A DNA stretch of 64,000 nucleotides from Bdellovibrio sp. (lineage in GTDB: Bacteria > Bdellovibrionota > Bacteriovoracia > Bacteriovoracales > Bacteriovoracaceae): the NCBI GenBank assembly GCA_016187935.1, contig JACPIU010000008.1, positions 182,916 to 246,915 of the forward strand. Direction: 5' to 3'. The notes beneath the pieces are model-generated. The model was given only the letters and a program-made list of their open reading frames with translations, made no database searches and was not told the DNA's origin. Both the position numbers and the translations under genes were made by a program. Below are positions 22,358-30,877 of the stretch, piece after piece. Numbering within the stretch: the stretch's first letter is position 1; every line of letters begins with the position of its first letter.

Positions 22358-22988
22358 AGCAGAGTACATCAAACTAGTTCCAGAGAAGCGTATTCATAGT
22401 TGCCAAGTTCCCGTGATTGGTCTCACTGGAGGTATTGCTTCGGGCAAATCCACCGCCAGTCGATATTTGGAGGAAATGGGATGTTTCATTATATGCGCAG
22501 ATAAATTGGTAAAAGAGATTTATCGTGAGGAAGCAACCATCGCTCAAATTGCAGAATTGGCCCCCACTGTTATCAAAGAAGGGAAAATTGACTTTGCACT
22601 CTTGCGCTCAATTGTTTTTCAAAATCCTCCCATTAAGCAAAAAGTGGAGGCCATCATTTACGCTCAATTGCCCCGTTACTTTCAAGCTAAGGCCAACACT
22701 TTGCCTGCGGCCTTCATCGTCTATGATGTCCCACTTCTCTTTGAAAAAAAACTTGCGCCTCTTTTTGATTTAACTGTTTGTGTGTATTGTTCCGCCCAAA
22801 TACAAAAGGAACGCCTCATAAAACGCGATGCCATTAGTGCCGAATTGGCCGATAAAATGATACAGGCACAGATGCCACTTGAACTTAAGAAAGATATGTC
22901 CGATTTTGTGATCACGACACTTGCCAGTCACGCAGAACTAAAAAACCAACTGAGGAATTTCTTGGAGAAAATTACGATTGTTGAATAG
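22344..22988 (+). CDS. coaE: Dephospho-CoA kinase
   Basis: 214 residues from the ATG at 22344. IGLTGGIASGKST is the P-loop, ADKLVKEIY follows, and VYDVPLLFEKKL is the CoaE lid/substrate segment. It performs the last step of coenzyme A synthesis. An upstream in-frame start at 22284 lies inside mazG and is less likely. It overlaps the convergent membrane-protein gene by 17 bases. Confidence 0.93.
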   Translation: MLKLKAEYIKLVPEKRIHSCQVPVIGLTGGIASGKSTASRYLEEMGCFIICADKLVKEIYREEATIAQIAELAPTVIKEGKIDFALLRSIVFQNPPIKQKVEAIIYAQLPRYFQAKANTLPAAFIVYDVPLLFEKKLAPLFDLTVCVYCSAQIQKERLIKRDAISAELADKMIQAQMPLELKKDMSDFVITTLASHAELKNQLRNFLEKITIVE

Positions 22989-25344
22989 GGGTATCGAGTT
23001 CAATCGGAGGCTCGGGCGCAACCGGAGTTTCATCCACCTTTTCTACAATCAGCTTTCGCATCTGCTCACCGACTTTTTCGGCATCCCTAAAAGATTTCAC
23101 AATCTGTTTGAGGGTTTCAATTAAGCCATTTTCATTGCTCTCAATATTGGCAACCATTTTCGATATTTCATAATCACCCGGGATAGATTCGGATCTATCA
23201 GGTAATTTTGGCATTGATCCCAATTCCCTCACGGATTCATCAAAATTCATTTCGAGCTTGGCCAGCCCGACTTCCAACTGGGTAAAGCAAGTGCCGAATT
23301 CGCTAAAGCTCGTATCGATACTTTTAACTAGTTTTTTTAACTGAGAGAACTCATCCTCAAGCGCCCGATCATTTTCATGCGTCTTCGATTTGAGAAGACA
23401 GTGATCAAGCGCCTGGATAATGTCAGATTTATTTGTATCAATAATTTTCTTCGCCTTTTTAACTTGATCCTTTAACGGGCCAAGAGATTTGATCGAAACC
23501 ACATTATGCTCAAAACCACTCTTATATTTATCTAAAGCTGCCGTGGCGATCTTGCAATCATTGGCAAAGATCTTTAAATTGCTCAAGAGCCAGTGTGTTT
23601 GCTTTTCTAATTCAGCACGTGAGAGTGCAAGATTAATAAAGTTCTTCTTAGCGTCTTTAAAACTGTCAATGGCCACTTTTTGAATATTCATACTCTGGGT
23701 AATGGCCTTGGAAATATCGGTTTTGACTTTCATTTGATCGCAGATTTCATTTTCTAATTTCTCAATCTCACATAACAGTCCATTTCTCTGATCTGTTATA
23801 TAATTTCCGATAGTTTGAAATTTTTCATAGATTCCGGCGATCCCACTTACCTCAAAATCATTCGCAAGCGCTTGCATTGCGGCCGCGTTATCAGAAGAAT
23901 TTAGCAGATAATCCAGCATTTTATTAATCGGAACAGTTAAACTTACCAGTTGTAAATTCAGCGTTTCCTCCATGGCCTTCATCGGATAGAAAAATACCAT
24001 GACCTTTCGCTGGCCCGAATATTCAATCGGAGTCACATACATTTCATATGAAGAAGCTTCCTCTGTATCCTTAGGGCGCACTTTAATCTGATAAATACCT
24101 GGCAAATTATTAGTCAATGCTGACTTGATCGGATCTTCATGCCCTAAATTTGTATATTGCAGAAGAAAATCCCAGCTCAAATTATTTTCAAAATCTTTTT
24201 GCCCGGTCAAATTCCATTGTTCAAAGAAAATATGATTGGCCCATACTACGCGAAGATTTGTGTCAAATAGTAATGAGGCAAAAGGCAGACCATCTTGCAC
24301 AAGCGATCCGAAGGCCAAGCGACGCTGTGTGTACTCTCGCAGTTTCATAAATGCTTGGCCAAATTTTTGGGAAAATCCCGCGATCTCGGTATTGTCAAAA
24401 ACTTCTTGCGATAATATCCCGCGTTTAATGATATCGAGAGTCGTTTGCTCTTGTTGCAACTGCTGCCTTCTATTGGTAAAGCGATGGATGATTGCACCTG
24501 AGATGAACGCAAGTAGTAAGAAAATGGCCAGTAGTCCCAAGGCTTCAAGCGCATGTTTATTTAAATTATTCAGGCCCTGTTTTTTTGCAGCTGCGGTTGA
24601 AACGCTCTCTTTCGCCCAAATTTCAACTTGGCCATCAAATTTATCCAGAGCGACTCTGAGATTTTCTGTATTTTTATGTAGAATGGACAGTTCCTCAATA
24701 TCGGAATTCATTTGATTAAGAAGTGTCTCAACTAATTTTTTATCCGCACCGGAAAGAATTGAACCATTAACAATTTCTTTTGCCCGTGTGAAATCCGACT
24801 CTAACGATGCAACAAAAGGTTCAAGTCGACCGGTTGTCGTCAAGGCAGTGGCCCTTTCAAGGAACTGCTGTGCCCGTTGACCCGATCGCTCTGAAATGGC
24901 AATTAATGTCGGCCATCGTTTCGATCTGGCAAGACTCTCTAATGACGCCAGTTTTTCTATCAAAACATTTAAAGGTCCTTGTACCTGCGGGCGAGACATA
25001 ATCTCTGAGAATGCTTGTTCCACCGCTTGCATCTGCGGTTCAATCGAATTAATGCTGATTACACTTGGCATCTGTTGGATGGCCTGCCCTATTTCTTTTT
25101 TGATGCGCTCAAAATATTCATTAGACTCGCGCAAATCTCCATGTAAAAAAGATAATTTTGCCTTCTGATAATTTCGATTTTCCAAAACTGATGCAATTGA
25201 AGGCCCAACATTGTAGACGCTGGCCAGAAACTCCGGATCAAACCCACCCTTAAATTGCAGATAATACGCCGCCCATCCAGCTGCGAATATATTGATTAGC
25301 AATACACTTGAATAAAAATAGAAATTAATGCTGCTTTTTTTCAT
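22972..25344 (-). CDS. Chemoreceptor-shaped membrane protein, function unknown
   Basis: 790 residues. TM1 covers about 9-29, a long helical periplasmic domain about 30-262 and TM2 266-287. A HAMP-like/helical linker follows, then a PAS-like domain (about 345-450, with LLFDTNLRVVWANHIFF) and a long helical, probably coiled-coil C-terminus to about 770, ending in a Pro/Glu-rich tail. The layout is that of a methyl-accepting chemotaxis protein, but I cannot find the conserved signalling hairpin (the AIEAARAGE-type tip), and there is no kinase, GGDEF or other output domain. It lies after fliA at the 3' end of the flagellar operon with a good AGGAAGG ribosome site. A role in flagellar placement or control is possible; I do not recognise the family. 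Confidence 0.75.
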   Translation of the reverse strand: MKKSSINFYFYSSVLLINIFAAGWAAYYLQFKGGFDPEFLASVYNVGPSIASVLENRNYQKAKLSFLHGDLRESNEYFERIKKEIGQAIQQMPSVISINSIEPQMQAVEQAFSEIMSRPQVQGPLNVLIEKLASLESLARSKRWPTLIAISERSGQRAQQFLERATALTTTGRLEPFVASLESDFTRAKEIVNGSILSGADKKLVETLLNQMNSDIEELSILHKNTENLRVALDKFDGQVEIWAKESVSTAAAKKQGLNNLNKHALEALGLLAIFLLLAFISGAIIHRFTNRRQQLQQEQTTLDIIKRGILSQEVFDNTEIAGFSQKFGQAFMKLREYTQRRLAFGSLVQDGLPFASLLFDTNLRVVWANHIFFEQWNLTGQKDFENNLSWDFLLQYTNLGHEDPIKSALTNNLPGIYQIKVRPKDTEEASSYEMYVTPIEYSGQRKVMVFFYPMKAMEETLNLQLVSLTVPINKMLDYLLNSSDNAAAMQALANDFEVSGIAGIYEKFQTIGNYITDQRNGLLCEIEKLENEICDQMKVKTDISKAITQSMNIQKVAIDSFKDAKKNFINLALSRAELEKQTHWLLSNLKIFANDCKIATAALDKYKSGFEHNVVSIKSLGPLKDQVKKAKKIIDTNKSDIIQALDHCLLKSKTHENDRALEDEFSQLKKLVKSIDTSFSEFGTCFTQLEVGLAKLEMNFDESVRELGSMPKLPDRSESIPGDYEISKMVANIESNENGLIETLKQIVKSFRDAEKVGEQMRKLIVEKVDETPVAPEPPIELDTPIQQS

Positions 25345-25565: not shown

Positions 25566-26357
25566 CTATTCTTGTCCGACAAGATCATCGACAGAGTCGA
25601 CAACTAGCCGAAGTTTCGATCGAAGACGCAGGACCGCTTGCGTATGAAGTTGTGAGACCCTCGATTCCGTCACATCGAGTACCTGTCCAATTTCCTTAAG
25701 ATTTAGGTCCTCATAATAATACAGGGATAATACAAGTTTTTGTTTATCTGGTAGAGTTTTAATTCCTTCCTTGATTTTCTCCTTGAGATCCTTGTAATTG
25801 ACTGCCTGGTAAGGATTATTGCTACGTGAGCTTTCCATAAGCCCGGCCATCAATTTCTTGTCACCTCGACTGAAACTGGCGGTGTCATCAATGTTTAAAA
25901 GAGAAATGGATTTGGCCTTATTGAGAAGGTCATGGAACTCATCTTGTGACATATGAAGTTCAGCGCACATCTCTTCATCTGTCACGGGACGACCAAATTG
26001 AGATTCGAGCTTGGCGTATGTTTTTTCTACTAATTTTGCCTTTTCACGAATAGAACGCGGCACCCAATCTTGGGCGCGCAATTCATCCAATATGGCCCCC
26101 CGAATCCGGAATTCGGCATAAGTTTTGAATTTGTTATCGCGAGAAGGATCAAATTTCTCAATCGCATCCATCAAGCCGATGACTCCACAAGAAACTAAAT
26201 CGTCCAGCTCAATATTGGATGGCAAACGAGAAGCAATTTTTTGTGCTACGTATTTTACCAGAGGGGCATATTCTATAATAATCTCATCTTTAACTTCCTG
26301 ACTTACTGTAGATCGATAATCCTTGAGGCCTTTTAACTTCTTTGCCAGGGATGACAT
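25566..26357 (-). CDS. fliA: Flagellar RNA polymerase sigma factor (FliA/WhiG type)
   Basis: 263 residues from the ATG at 26357, which has AAGGAG nine bases upstream; the open frame reaches 26408. Region 2 has YAPLVKYVAQKIASRLP, DLVSCGVIGLMDAIEKFDP and TYAEFRIRGAILDELRAQDWVPRS. Region 4 has LPDKQKLVLSLYYYEDLNLKEIG and VTESRVSQLHTQA. It directs transcription of late flagellar and motility genes. It follows flhG by ten bases. Confidence 0.93.
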   Translation of the reverse strand: MSSLAKKLKGLKDYRSTVSQEVKDEIIIEYAPLVKYVAQKIASRLPSNIELDDLVSCGVIGLMDAIEKFDPSRDNKFKTYAEFRIRGAILDELRAQDWVPRSIREKAKLVEKTYAKLESQFGRPVTDEEMCAELHMSQDEFHDLLNKAKSISLLNIDDTASFSRGDKKLMAGLMESSRSNNPYQAVNYKDLKEKIKEGIKTLPDKQKLVLSLYYYEDLNLKEIGQVLDVTESRVSQLHTQAVLRLRSKLRLVVDSVDDLVGQE

Positions 26358-26367
26358 CAGGTTCTCC

Positions 26368-27276
26368 TTAGCTAAAACGGTGTTGGACGTTATCAGCACT
26401 TCGAACATCAGGGCGCAGCGCCGTGCTTACGTCACGAGATACGTCAACCCCTTCCTCGGTTAATTTTGAAACGATACTTAAAAATTTTCTCTGGTCATTT
26501 TTTTCCTCGGAAAAAAATTGCCGGTCAAAACTTTCCGGGTCTACGCCGTAATCATGAATATGCCCGACGAATTCAAGGCGTCCTGCCAAAAAGCGTTCCA
26601 CCGTTTCACCGAGCGATTTAACAATCCTGAGATATTGCGCTTCGTCCTTAATTCTATTGAGAAGCACGCAATTATGATCGATTCCATGGATATTCTTGAG
26701 CAATTTGATTACAGAATACGAGTCCGTCAGTGATGAAATATCTGGATTCACGACAAGAAGACGCTTGTCCGCATAAGCGCAAAGAGAAAGAACTTCTCGT
26801 CCTGCTCCGGCAGGACAATCAATGATTATGCTGTCATACCGCTTTTCACATTGAACCAGCAAATCAATAACTTTGCATTCAATTTTTTCATCACTAAAAA
26901 CAATCTTTTCCTGCCCGTGATGCCCGGGCAGAAGATCGAAATACGAAGTCGAAAGAATTAGAGAATTCAAATCGACTTCCCCGGAAAGATAATCATACAA
27001 TCCGAAGCTTGGCCTAAGCCCAAGTTTCAAAGCGGTATTGCTCAAATTATAATCGAAGTCGATGCAAATTACTTTCTTTCCCGATTCCCCCAATGAGCGA
27101 GCAAGCTTAAGGGCCATGGTAGTTTTGCCTACTCCACCTTTACCGCTGGCAATTGCAATGCTCTGGGAGCGTACCGATGCGTTTTTTAGATTTGAAATTT
27201 GTTTGCTTTTTCCAGGGAAACCCGAGACAGAAGTCCGCTGGGAATCCAACCATTCTGAGGCATTGTTAGTCGACAT
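26368..27276 (-). CDS. flhG: MinD-like flagellar number ATPase FlhG
   Basis: 302 residues from the ATG at 27276, preceded by AGGAGACAGG. The deviant Walker A is IASGKGGVGKTT, the switch region is VICIDFDYNLSN and the Walker B is SIIIDCPAGAG. FlhG restricts flagellar number and normally stimulates the FlhF GTPase through an N-terminal DQAxxLR motif. Here the N-terminal tail reads MSTNNASEWLDSQR and has no clear DQAxxLR. This matters because the adjacent FlhF lacks GTPase residues. The C-terminus is longer than the usual amphipathic helix and ends in an Asp/Arg/Ser-rich tail. Confidence 0.88.
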   Translation of the reverse strand: MSTNNASEWLDSQRTSVSGFPGKSKQISNLKNASVRSQSIAIASGKGGVGKTTMALKLARSLGESGKKVICIDFDYNLSNTALKLGLRPSFGLYDYLSGEVDLNSLILSTSYFDLLPGHHGQEKIVFSDEKIECKVIDLLVQCEKRYDSIIIDCPAGAGREVLSLCAYADKRLLVVNPDISSLTDSYSVIKLLKNIHGIDHNCVLLNRIKDEAQYLRIVKSLGETVERFLAGRLEFVGHIHDYGVDPESFDRQFFSEEKNDQRKFLSIVSKLTEEGVDVSRDVSTALRPDVRSADNVQHRFS

Positions 27277-27381
27277 CCTGTCTCCTGCTAACACCAAACT
27301 TAGTTAATCTTGCACATCGCCGATGATCGCTCCTGCTTTCATTGGCATTCCGTCCATCCTGCACATTCGTGCTTCAAAATC

Positions 27382-28800
27382 TCAAAGATGAAACAATCCC
27401 GCCAAAATTCGTTCAGGCGTTGCTGCCTCCAGATCATCTGGAACAACATCACCGGTACTAAAAAATTTTAAAGGAATTTTATTAAAAGCATAGAGCAGGT
27501 TAAAAAGTGCTCCATAGTTTAAACATAAATCAAGATGACCAATAACAATGCCGTCTGTCAGCTTTTGATAGCAATTCAATATTTTTCGGTTATATACTTC
27601 CGAATGGATGGCGGACAAGGAAACAAAGGTTTCGACATTATTAAAAGAACGCTTAACTCCATCTATCAGTTGCTTGACTTCAAAGGATTGACCGGCGGTG
27701 ACTTTAAAATCAATAAAAACATTTTTACCAAGTTCACAATTTTTTCTGCAAAAAGATAGTATCTCGCTTATTGACCTTGCTACCACCGTTTCAATGCCAA
27801 AAATTTTGCAAGAAAAATTCTGATTTTCCTGTTCTTCGGAACCTTGGATAATCTCTCCTTGGTCAGTCTTGCGTATGGGGAAATAACTTACCACAACAGA
27901 ATTCTGGTTAAGTGAAGCTAACTTCCGAATCAGAGTCGTTTGCCCGCATGATGTTTCAGAAACGAAGACAGTTAAATGTGGACCTGATACGTCTTCCTTG
28001 GCAAAATGGGCCGAATCAGTCTTAATAACCGTCATCATTTCCTTGAGTGCGGTTTCAAAAATCAGCTCAGTATTATCCAACGCGATCTCTGGTAACTCAT
28101 ACTGCAATTTAACCAAAAGTTTTTGAATATAAGAGTTATCAATATCAAGGGAACGCAAGGTATTCCTCAACTGATATAAACCTCGTGCCTGGGATTTTTC
28201 TTTTGTTTCAAGATTTTTACTCAAATCGAAAATCTTTCTTTCTAAATCTGCAATCTTATCCAAAGCCGATAAATACAAATCACGTGCTTGAGATGCGCTC
28301 TCTGTCGGCGCTTGATTCATAGATGAAACCGGTCGTTGCGGTTTAGGCGATGCCGCTCGGGTCTGTACGGGAGCCGGAGCTTCTTGCTCAGTCGTAGCAC
28401 TTAAAAACTCATCCAGGCCCCGGCCGGCAGGAACATTGCGCTCATTGTTTTGCACCATTTGCACTTGTTTATTTAAGGCAATATTCCCGTAATCATTCGC
28501 GCTTTTCTTCGGTTGAGTCTGATTGGTAGAATATTGTCCGATCATCTTTTCTATATGTTCTGAATCAGCTTGGTAAAACTTTTCTCTTGCTTCAGGTGTA
28601 ATGGCCCGATCAACATTGGCCTTACGAGAATAGTTACGTTCGGAAATCGCGGCGGTAATTTCAATTTTCTTCTTCTTGAAGGCGCCTTTTAATCCTTTGT
28701 TTGTCACGGTTTTAAGAATGACCGCATCAGGGCCAAGTTCTTTTTTAATTTCTTTCAGTGCTTCTTCAAGAGTTTCGGCCTCGAATTTTCTTACAAACAT
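27382..28800 (-). CDS. flhF: FlhF-like flagellar placement protein with degenerate GTPase motifs
   Basis: 472 residues. The N-terminal B domain starts VRKFEAETLEEALKEIKKELGPDAVILKT, quoted here in part only, and is typical of FlhF. A disordered linker spans about 85-170, an N domain about 170-260 and an SRP-type G domain 270-472. The G-domain end, STGDVVPDDLEAATPERI, is conserved. The nucleotide motifs are not: the P-loop is SETSCGQTT (281-289) with Gln287 where the lysine should be; the DTAGR motif is replaced by DFKVTAGQ (364-371); and TKLDE is replaced by GHLDL (421-425). The protein is therefore probably not a working GTPase. It lies between flhA and flhG. FlhF normally marks the pole for flagellar assembly. 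Confidence 0.88.
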   Translation of the reverse strand: MFVRKFEAETLEEALKEIKKELGPDAVILKTVTNKGLKGAFKKKKIEITAAISERNYSRKANVDRAITPEAREKFYQADSEHIEKMIGQYSTNQTQPKKSANDYGNIALNKQVQMVQNNERNVPAGRGLDEFLSATTEQEAPAPVQTRAASPKPQRPVSSMNQAPTESASQARDLYLSALDKIADLERKIFDLSKNLETKEKSQARGLYQLRNTLRSLDIDNSYIQKLLVKLQYELPEIALDNTELIFETALKEMMTVIKTDSAHFAKEDVSGPHLTVFVSETSCGQTTLIRKLASLNQNSVVVSYFPIRKTDQGEIIQGSEEQENQNFSCKIFGIETVVARSISEILSFCRKNCELGKNVFIDFKVTAGQSFEVKQLIDGVKRSFNNVETFVSLSAIHSEVYNRKILNCYQKLTDGIVIGHLDLCLNYGALFNLLYAFNKIPLKFFSTGDVVPDDLEAATPERILAGLFHL

Positions 28801-28801
28801 G

Positions 28802-30877
28802 TTATAACCTCACTGTCCCAAGTGAACGAATGTGGATTTCCGGACTCAATTCATTGTGACTAACCACAAATAGATTCGGTAAAAACTTTTCTGTCAATTT
28901 TTTAAAATGCTTTCTCACCACTGGCGAACATAGCACCACCATTTTTTCACCATGAGTAGTGGCCTCTTCAATCTTCTCATTCAAGCTGGCCAATACTTTT
29001 TGAGTAATTTTTGGATCGAGAGATACTTGAGGGCCATGATCGGTTTGAATGATATTTGTCGCAACGGCTTCTTCAATGCTTCGATCCAACGTAAACAACG
29101 GGATATCACCCTGATCGCTTTTGATACCCTCGGTGATTGTTCGATAGAGGGCCTGGCGTACCAACTCTCCCAGGGCATCGGCATCTTTTAAAGTCGGACC
29201 GTTCTCCGCTAAAGATTCCAATATACTTCTTAGATCGCGAATAGAAACTCCTTCCCTAAGTAAACCCTGTAATACCCTTAAAACTGTTCCCAATGGCAAA
29301 ATATCCGGAATCAAGTCAGATACTATTTTAGGATAGGTTTCTTTAAAATTGTCGAGAATTCTTACTAATTCTTGTCGGCCGAATAGTTCATGCAAATTGG
29401 TCTTGAGAACCTCGGTTAAATGTGTGGCCGCAATAGTGGACAAGTCAACTACAGTGTATCCATTGTATTGGGCCTCTTCTTTTTGATCTTCGGTAATCCA
29501 AATCGCAGGCAATCCAAATACTGGTTCCTTTGTCTCAATGCCTGGCAATTTTTCCGTTACCGTACCCGGGTCCATGGCCAAGAAATGATCTGTCATCAGC
29601 TCACCTTTGGCCACTGTCACACCCTTAATTTTAAGCACATAACCACCGGGTCTTAATTCTAAATTGTCTTTAATTCTTACGGAGGGAATTATGATTCCCC
29701 AATCGAGAGCGAATTGCTTTCGGATATGGGTAATTCTCTCAAGAAGATCTCCTTTTTGAGCAGAATCCACCAGGTCTACAAGACCATAGCCAACTTCTAA
29801 CTCGATCAACTCGAGATTTAAAAGTGACTCAAGATTATCGGGTGTAGTCTTCTTTTCTTCCACTTCTTTACTTTTTGCTGATTCCGCTTCTTTTTTTATG
29901 TTTCTTTCAATTCTATAAGCACCGAAAGCAAGACCTGCACCAACAAGAATAAAAGGAATTTTTGGTAGACCAGGAATCAGGGCAAAAATGAAAAGAACTC
30001 CGGCCGACATATATATGGCCCGTGGCTGAAATTTAATTTGCTTGGTCATCTGATCGCCGAGAGCACCACTGTTGGCATTGCGAGTGGTTAAAATACCAGC
30101 AGCGGTTGAAATAATCAGACCTGGAATTTGAGAAACCAAACCATCACCAACAGTCAACAAAGTGAAAGTACGGCCTGCATCTACAAATTCCATATTATTT
30201 TGGGCCACACCGATAATAATACCGGCCACGATATTCAATGCCGTAATTAAAAGACCGGCAATGGCATCACCACGAACAAATTTTGAAGCACCATCCATGG
30301 AACCATAAAAATCAGCTTCCTCGGCAATTTCTTTGCGCCGCAGTTTTGCTTCACTCTCGTTAATCAATCCGGCATTTAAATCAGCATCAATGGCCATCTG
30401 CTTACCGGGCATGGCATCCAAGGTAAAACGGGCGGCGACTTCAGCAACACGGCCAGCACCTTTTGTAATAACAACAAAGTTAATAATAACCAAAATGAAA
30501 AAAATCACAATTCCAACAAAGTAATTTCCTTCCACAACAAATTCGCCAAAAGCGCGGATAATTTCACCTGCTGCATGAGTACCATCGGTTCCACCTCTTA
30601 AAAGGATGACCCGAGTCGACGCTACGTTAATTGAGAGGCGAAACAAAGTAATCATCAAAAGGATAGAAGGGAAAGTGGAGAAATCCAGCGGCCTTTTACT
30701 GTATACGGACATCAACAAAATAATGATTGATGACGACAGCGTAAAAGCAATCAGCAAATCCAGCAATAATGCCGGCATTGGAACAACCATGACGGCCAAA
30801 ACAAGCAGCAACCCGATAGCTATGGCCAGCTCTGAGTTTTTTGATAGGTCACGAAAACGATTTAGCACAGTATCCAT
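28802..30877 (-). CDS. flhA: Flagellar type III export gate protein FlhA
   Basis: 691 residues. Eight TM segments lie in the first 330 residues, with the FHIPEP-family signature around RFTLDAMPGKQMAIDADLNA. A large cytoplasmic domain for chaperone-substrate docking follows. Length and domain order are normal. FlhA forms the nonameric ring of the export gate. It starts seven bases after flhB and ends one base before flhF. Confidence 0.95.
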   Translation of the reverse strand: MDTVLNRFRDLSKNSELAIAIGLLLVLAVMVVPMPALLLDLLIAFTLSSSIIILLMSVYSKRPLDFSTFPSILLMITLFRLSINVASTRVILLRGGTDGTHAAGEIIRAFGEFVVEGNYFVGIVIFFILVIINFVVITKGAGRVAEVAARFTLDAMPGKQMAIDADLNAGLINESEAKLRRKEIAEEADFYGSMDGASKFVRGDAIAGLLITALNIVAGIIIGVAQNNMEFVDAGRTFTLLTVGDGLVSQIPGLIISTAAGILTTRNANSGALGDQMTKQIKFQPRAIYMSAGVLFIFALIPGLPKIPFILVGAGLAFGAYRIERNIKKEAESAKSKEVEEKKTTPDNLESLLNLELIELEVGYGLVDLVDSAQKGDLLERITHIRKQFALDWGIIIPSVRIKDNLELRPGGYVLKIKGVTVAKGELMTDHFLAMDPGTVTEKLPGIETKEPVFGLPAIWITEDQKEEAQYNGYTVVDLSTIAATHLTEVLKTNLHELFGRQELVRILDNFKETYPKIVSDLIPDILPLGTVLRVLQGLLREGVSIRDLRSILESLAENGPTLKDADALGELVRQALYRTITEGIKSDQGDIPLFTLDRSIEEAVATNIIQTDHGPQVSLDPKITQKVLASLNEKIEEATTHGEKMVVLCSPVVRKHFKKLTEKFLPNLFVVSHNELSPEIHIRSLGTVRL

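Follow-up and report, generated by a model that had tools for sequence, protein, structure and literature searches.

The window, by which we mean the whole analysed stretch of 64,000 nucleotides, carries a flagellar operon on its minus strand, for which open reading frames and profile searches gave the gene order flhB-flhA-flhF-flhG-fliA. Related loci belong to Bacteriovorax, Halobacteriovorax, Bacteriovoracaceae and relatives, and from these names we assign the group, hereafter the class, to Bacteriovoracia, a GTDB class represented by one family in the genome set used. The nearest relative, from the same genus, is contig MEPP01000004.1 (Bdellovibrionales bacterium GWA2_49_15). The features of the locus are as follows:

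28802..30877, minus strand: flhA, the upstream neighbour in the flhF operon (open reading frame; FHIPEP, E 1.6e-269)
27382..28800, minus strand: flhF, pseudo-GTPase form, 472 aa (open reading frame; TIGR03499 FlhF, 75.6 bits; predicted NG fold)
28516..28800, minus strand: FlhF B domain, residues 1-95, class signature GPDAIILKT..GAFKKKKIEITAAISE (alignment A2; dN/dS 0.03; pLDDT about 90 over most of the domain)
27991..28296, minus strand: FlhF N domain, residues 169-270 (helices in the AlphaFold2 model; dN/dS 0.03)
27934..27960, minus strand: degenerate P-loop SETSCGQTT, residues 281-289, with Gln287 replacing Lys (Gln in 150/150 class frames)
27697..27711, minus strand: degenerate G3, DFKVT, residues 364-368 (D364 alone invariant in the class)
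27526..27540, minus strand: degenerate G4, GHLDL, residues 421-425 (D424 invariant, Lys lost; the class signature LDxCLNFGALFN is new)
26368..27276, minus strand: flhG, 302 aa, with an intact deviant Walker A and without DQAxxLR (start codon and Shine-Dalgarno sequence; profiles; class alignment A3)
27232..27276, minus strand: FlhG N-terminal helix MSTNNASEWLDSQRT with a class-invariant Trp (51/51 in A3; 138/138 tabulated N-termini)
25566..26357, minus strand: fliA (sigma-28), start ATG at 26357 (TIGR02479, 275.9 bits; start codon and Shine-Dalgarno sequence)

The window FlhF was identified by its locus, its B domain and its profile match. The gene occupies the expected place in a flhA-flhF-flhG-fliA locus, and its product combines a B domain with an SRP-type NG fold. 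Its score lies below the curated cut-off of TIGR03499 (174.15 bits), and the same profile is matched by all 58 aligned class FlhFs, with a best E of 6.1e-22. A search of the genome (4.4 Mb, 99% complete) for SRP-type GTPase domains, which the sequence-only reading had proposed as a check, found no second FlhF; besides two full-length proteins of Ffh/FtsY type, it gave a single weak match to an unrelated P-loop.

The start of flhG was placed at the ATG at 27276, not at the TTG at 27297. The residues GDR preceding this Met were rejected as protein sequence and correspond to the upstream Shine-Dalgarno sequence translated in frame. The Shine-Dalgarno sequence of fliA overlaps the flhG stop codon (window 26355-26371), and the QEVQ-like end of FlhG, conserved across the class, was read as this overlap rather than as a protein motif. 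Downstream of fliA, window 22972-25344 encodes a predicted protein of 790 aa with no Pfam family above the cut-off and only a weak PAS-like match.

The G domain of the window FlhF departs from the sequence definition of an SRP-type GTPase (GxxGxGK[ST], I-box DTYR, G3 DTxG, G4 [TS]KxD) in every motif. A canonical FlhF of the same phylum, with GPTGVGKTT, DTYK, DTTGR and SKLDE, served as the reference. In the P-loop, SETSCGQTT stands in place of GPTGVGKTT, so that Gln287 occupies the Lys site, as claimed from the sequence alone, and the first Gly is gone as well. G4 reads GHLDL instead of TKLDE, again as claimed, and D424 is all that is left of it. G3 retains D364 and has otherwise lost DTAGR. 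The earlier reading of this site as DFKVTAGQ was right about the loss; its 'TAG', which we considered as a displaced relic of DTAGR, is a chance resemblance, as the nearest relatives from the same genus have DFKVVGGQ or DFKVVDGQ at this site, with DYKxxxxE as the consensus of the class. The same reading counted three degraded motifs. All three are indeed degraded; the number lost is four, since the I-box/DTYR region is gone too.

What replaced these motifs is itself conserved. Invariant among the 58 aligned class FlhFs are S281, G286, Q287, K293, D364, I398, E401 and N404, together with D424, C426, G430, N434, P443 and G450. The alignment indicates that the motif state of the class is fixed, constrained and new, not an erosion.

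To assess how widely this state occurs, we collected 150 class FlhF frames from two overlapping collections, representing 103 distinct sequences. All 150 have Gln at the P-loop Lys site, within AQ in one frame and GQ in all others. FlhF of this type is present in 119/129 Bacteriovoracia genomes, and its absence mostly coincides with flhA not being found. The P-loop Lys is kept in 70/70 FlhFs from about 20 other families of the phylum. In a maximum-likelihood tree built with the motif columns left out, the class FlhFs form one clade (100/100), and the loss of Lys needs one change. The tree thus places a single loss on the stem of class Bacteriovoracia, and the sequences indicate that it is ancient and fixed for the whole class rather than peculiar to the window genome.

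Elsewhere in the phylum, other FlhFs are altered in part. Members of a large sister clade (f6, probably Bdellovibrionaceae, f11, f18 and f21-23) keep GxxGxGKT, while their G3 is altered and often their G4 too. Such half-eroded loci include L174, L176, L177, L180, L193, L194 and L204-L215, where FlhG is without DQAxxLR. In families f3 and f16, FlhF is compact (349-382 aa) and has a good P-loop but lacks DTxG, and here too FlhG is without DQAxxLR (L184-L189).

Purifying selection on the class FlhF is strong. In a comparison of the window with its congener, dN/dS is 0.07 for FlhF and 0.09 for FlhG, values that are safe only as 'far below 1' since synonymous sites of this pair are near saturation. 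By part, the same FlhF comparison gave 0.03 for both the B and N domains, 0.07 for the G domain, 0.018 for the P-loop window and 0.21 for the linker. Six close class pairs range from 0.06 to 0.14. A profile score of 75.6 bits, so far under the curated 174, could have pointed to a sequencing error, a pseudogene or neutral decay. The low dN/dS, the presence in 119/129 genomes and the same Gln in all 103 distinct class sequences refute this explanation, which we consider next to impossible; related genomes do not restore the motifs.

The AlphaFold2 model of FlhF has a mean pLDDT of 78.5, with 85-95 in most G-domain blocks and lower values near residues 310-330 and 450-472. It adopts an SRP-type NG fold, and its best structural matches are all FlhF (2PX3, 2PX0 and 8R9R; Z about 18), led by B. 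subtilis FlhF 2PX3 with Z 18.2. In GTPases the P-loop Lys begins the helix that follows the P-loop, and Gln287 begins this helix in the model.

The pocket might be reworked rather than dead, binding a nucleotide or another ligand through Gln287, Ser/Thr288, Asp364 and Asp424 and still cycling. Gln287 and Asp424 never vary, Ser/Thr288 is retained in 57/58 aligned sequences, and the model is of good confidence in the fold surrounding the site. However, the P-loop has lost its Lys and first Gly, G3 its Thr-Ala-Gly and G4 its Lys, all together with the I-box, and FlhG is without the DQAxxLR activator. We therefore regard a cycling pocket as quite improbable, and class FlhF would not bind GTP in the usual way.

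FlhG, the neighbouring ATPase, has changed in parallel. As the sequence-only reading had noted, its deviant Walker A is normal: KGGVGKT(T) is intact in the window (KGGVGKTT) and near-invariant in the class alignment A3. The reading had also found no clear DQAxxLR motif, and this holds well beyond the window, with DQAxxLR in 0/140 class FlhGs. At its place lies an N-terminal helix with the consensus MSxxxxSxWLxSxN, whose invariant Trp occupies the Leu position of DQAxxLR. The helix is predicted for residues 6-17 with low confidence, and the C-terminal 26 residues, in which a membrane-targeting helix was sought, have a pLDDT under 50.

The losses in the two proteins do co-occur. In other families of the phylum, all 17 DQA-bearing FlhGs adjoin an FlhF with intact motifs and none adjoins a degenerate FlhF. 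Five canonical FlhFs in those families have no detectable DQA in the adjoining FlhG, some of these loci being truncated. A formal test on the tree involved about four independent changes, too few for significance. The missing motifs, the absence of DQAxxLR and the lack of a second FlhF copy together support the claim that the GTPase cycle was lost along with its activator.

We searched 125 class genomes for FlhA and found it in 114. Among cultured members, the literature describes one polar flagellum for Halobacteriovorax marinus (PMC5760749) and one polar sheathed flagellum for Bacteriovorax stolpii and B. starrii (PMC7175336). Polar monotrichous flagellation thus coexists with a pseudo-GTPase FlhF. 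A search for FimV/HubP gave no match in the class, but none in any control genome either.

The reading we favour, and hold to be rather more probable than its competitors combined, is that FlhF turned into a pseudo-GTPase a single time, in the common ancestor of the class, and now places the flagellum as an adaptor that works without nucleotide, the GTP step being gone and control being exerted via FlhG. FlhF would keep its B domain and SRP-type NG fold as a scaffold. The NG domain would dock on a polar site, while the B domain would recruit the first flagellar ring proteins, so that a single flagellum is assembled there. The step of FlhG-stimulated GTP hydrolysis would have been dropped. In FlhG, the catalytic helix has been lost and the ATPase site kept, with the conserved Trp helix as a new element. 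Since FlhG keeps this site and carries the Trp helix, it is probably FlhG that exerts what control of FlhF remains, and any on/off switching would probably consist of ATP-driven FlhG binding and release.

Work in other species bears on this model in both directions. In Shewanella, FlhF contacts HubP through its NG domain, independently of nucleotide, and FliG through its B domain (PMC11236974). For this reason 'adaptor' describes the class FlhF better than the 'nucleotide-independent landmark' proposed from the sequence alone, itself a plausible reading. V. cholerae FlhF with a mutated G3 is still able to recruit polar FliF, yet the protein depends on GTP binding to function (PMC7226244), and in P. 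aeruginosa the FlhF-FliG contact is favoured by GTP (PMC12713375). The need for GTP binding in V. cholerae and the effect of GTP in P. aeruginosa count against a GTP-free reading. So do the invariant S281, G286, Q287, D364, D424 and G450, as a pocket lined by them could bind something.

One genus, g32, keeps FlhF where there appears to be nothing to place. Its four genomes (G032, G065, G075 and G083; 99, 98, 94 and 88% complete) gave no match for FlhA, FlhB, FliG, FliM or flagellin, and for FlhG only distant MinD/ParA-type matches. Nevertheless, three of the four encode an FlhF of 346-375 aa with a GQ[ST] P-loop, and the next gene in each encodes a FliA-like sigma factor. This FlhF falls inside the class clade on the tree, with a dN/dS of 0.062 (0.020 for FliA). 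At loci L037, L038 and L039, the open reading frame upstream of flhF, 169-173 aa and of no known family, shares 4 bases with the start of flhF; a FliM remnant was considered for this frame and rejected (hhalign probability 0.1%, no Pfam family). In the deep-branching genome G001, which has flagellar genes and is 75% complete, flhG is missing from the locus, where flhF is followed by fliA (L036:1625-3971), and was not found elsewhere in that genome.

From the gene content of g32 and G001, pseudo-FlhF persists after FlhG and the flagellum have gone. In g32 it cannot serve to place a flagellum, which counts against the adaptor reading, and more generally placement may not be the sole job of FlhF. 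These sequences hint at a second, non-flagellar role. Tentatively, and with less confidence than the placement model, the class-wide pseudo-GTPase could be a general nucleotide-free polar adaptor or a FliA-linked regulator that outlives the flagellum, with g32 keeping pseudo-FlhF and FliA as a working module. A stronger version holds that the main ancestral role in the class was a separate function tied to fliA, such as sigma-28 control or marking the pole for another machine, and that its flagellar role shrank as the GTP switch disappeared. The constrained, short pseudo-FlhF before fliA in three g32 genomes fits this version. However, g32 is one genus and may represent a late co-option, and elsewhere flhF lies between flhA and flhG, and genomes without it are mostly ones that gave no flhA either. 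We consider an ancestral fliA-linked role unlikely. Under the preferred adaptor reading, flagellar placement in Bacteriovoracia, which are mostly predatory, probably needs no GTP switch of the kind believed to drive placement elsewhere.

The class FlhF shares much with the known SRP-type GTPase FlhF (TIGR03499; B. subtilis 2PX3, S. putrefaciens 8R9R): the flhA-flhF-flhG-fliA order, the B-N-G domain order, the NG fold (Z 18), a single copy and polar-flagellate hosts. It differs in having lost the P-loop Lys, the I-box, G3 and the G4 Lys, and in scoring below the family cut-off. Judged by its motifs, it is an orthologue of FlhF without the sequence hallmarks of a functional SRP-type GTPase. Class FlhG resembles FlhG/YlxH/FleN as a MinD-like ATPase with an intact deviant Walker A that adjoins flhF, but has an invariant Trp helix instead of DQAxxLR. 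FleN of Pseudomonas is also without DQAxxLR (PMC12713375), and FlhF there is treated as a GTP-binding protein in published work. Mutants in the FlhF GTPase motifs of Vibrio alginolyticus, V. cholerae and P. aeruginosa reveal GTP-dependent steps; these are laboratory changes that cost function, whereas the loss in the class is natural, fixed and compatible with flagella. With pseudo-GTPases and pseudoenzymes in general (PMC10211241), class FlhF has in common a conserved fold, lost catalytic motifs and purifying selection. Our literature search, which covered few subscription papers, found no report of a pseudo-GTPase in the SRP-GTPase family FlhF, and no paper on FlhF in Bacteriovorax or linking FlhF to pseudoenzymes.

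Annotation pipelines may miss the class FlhFs, whose scores lie far below the curated cut-off, or call them GTPases. Whether the GTP cycle of FlhF is needed for placing and counting polar flagella is disputed, because mutants of different species disagree. Evolution has removed the GTP site in this class and cultured members still have one polar flagellum, which makes the class a natural experiment on that need. The paired erosion of the activator motif and the GTPase motifs across the phylum offers steps by which the switch may have been dismantled. Our results suggest that FlhF is a scaffold at its core, and that its switch can be given up or transferred to FlhG.
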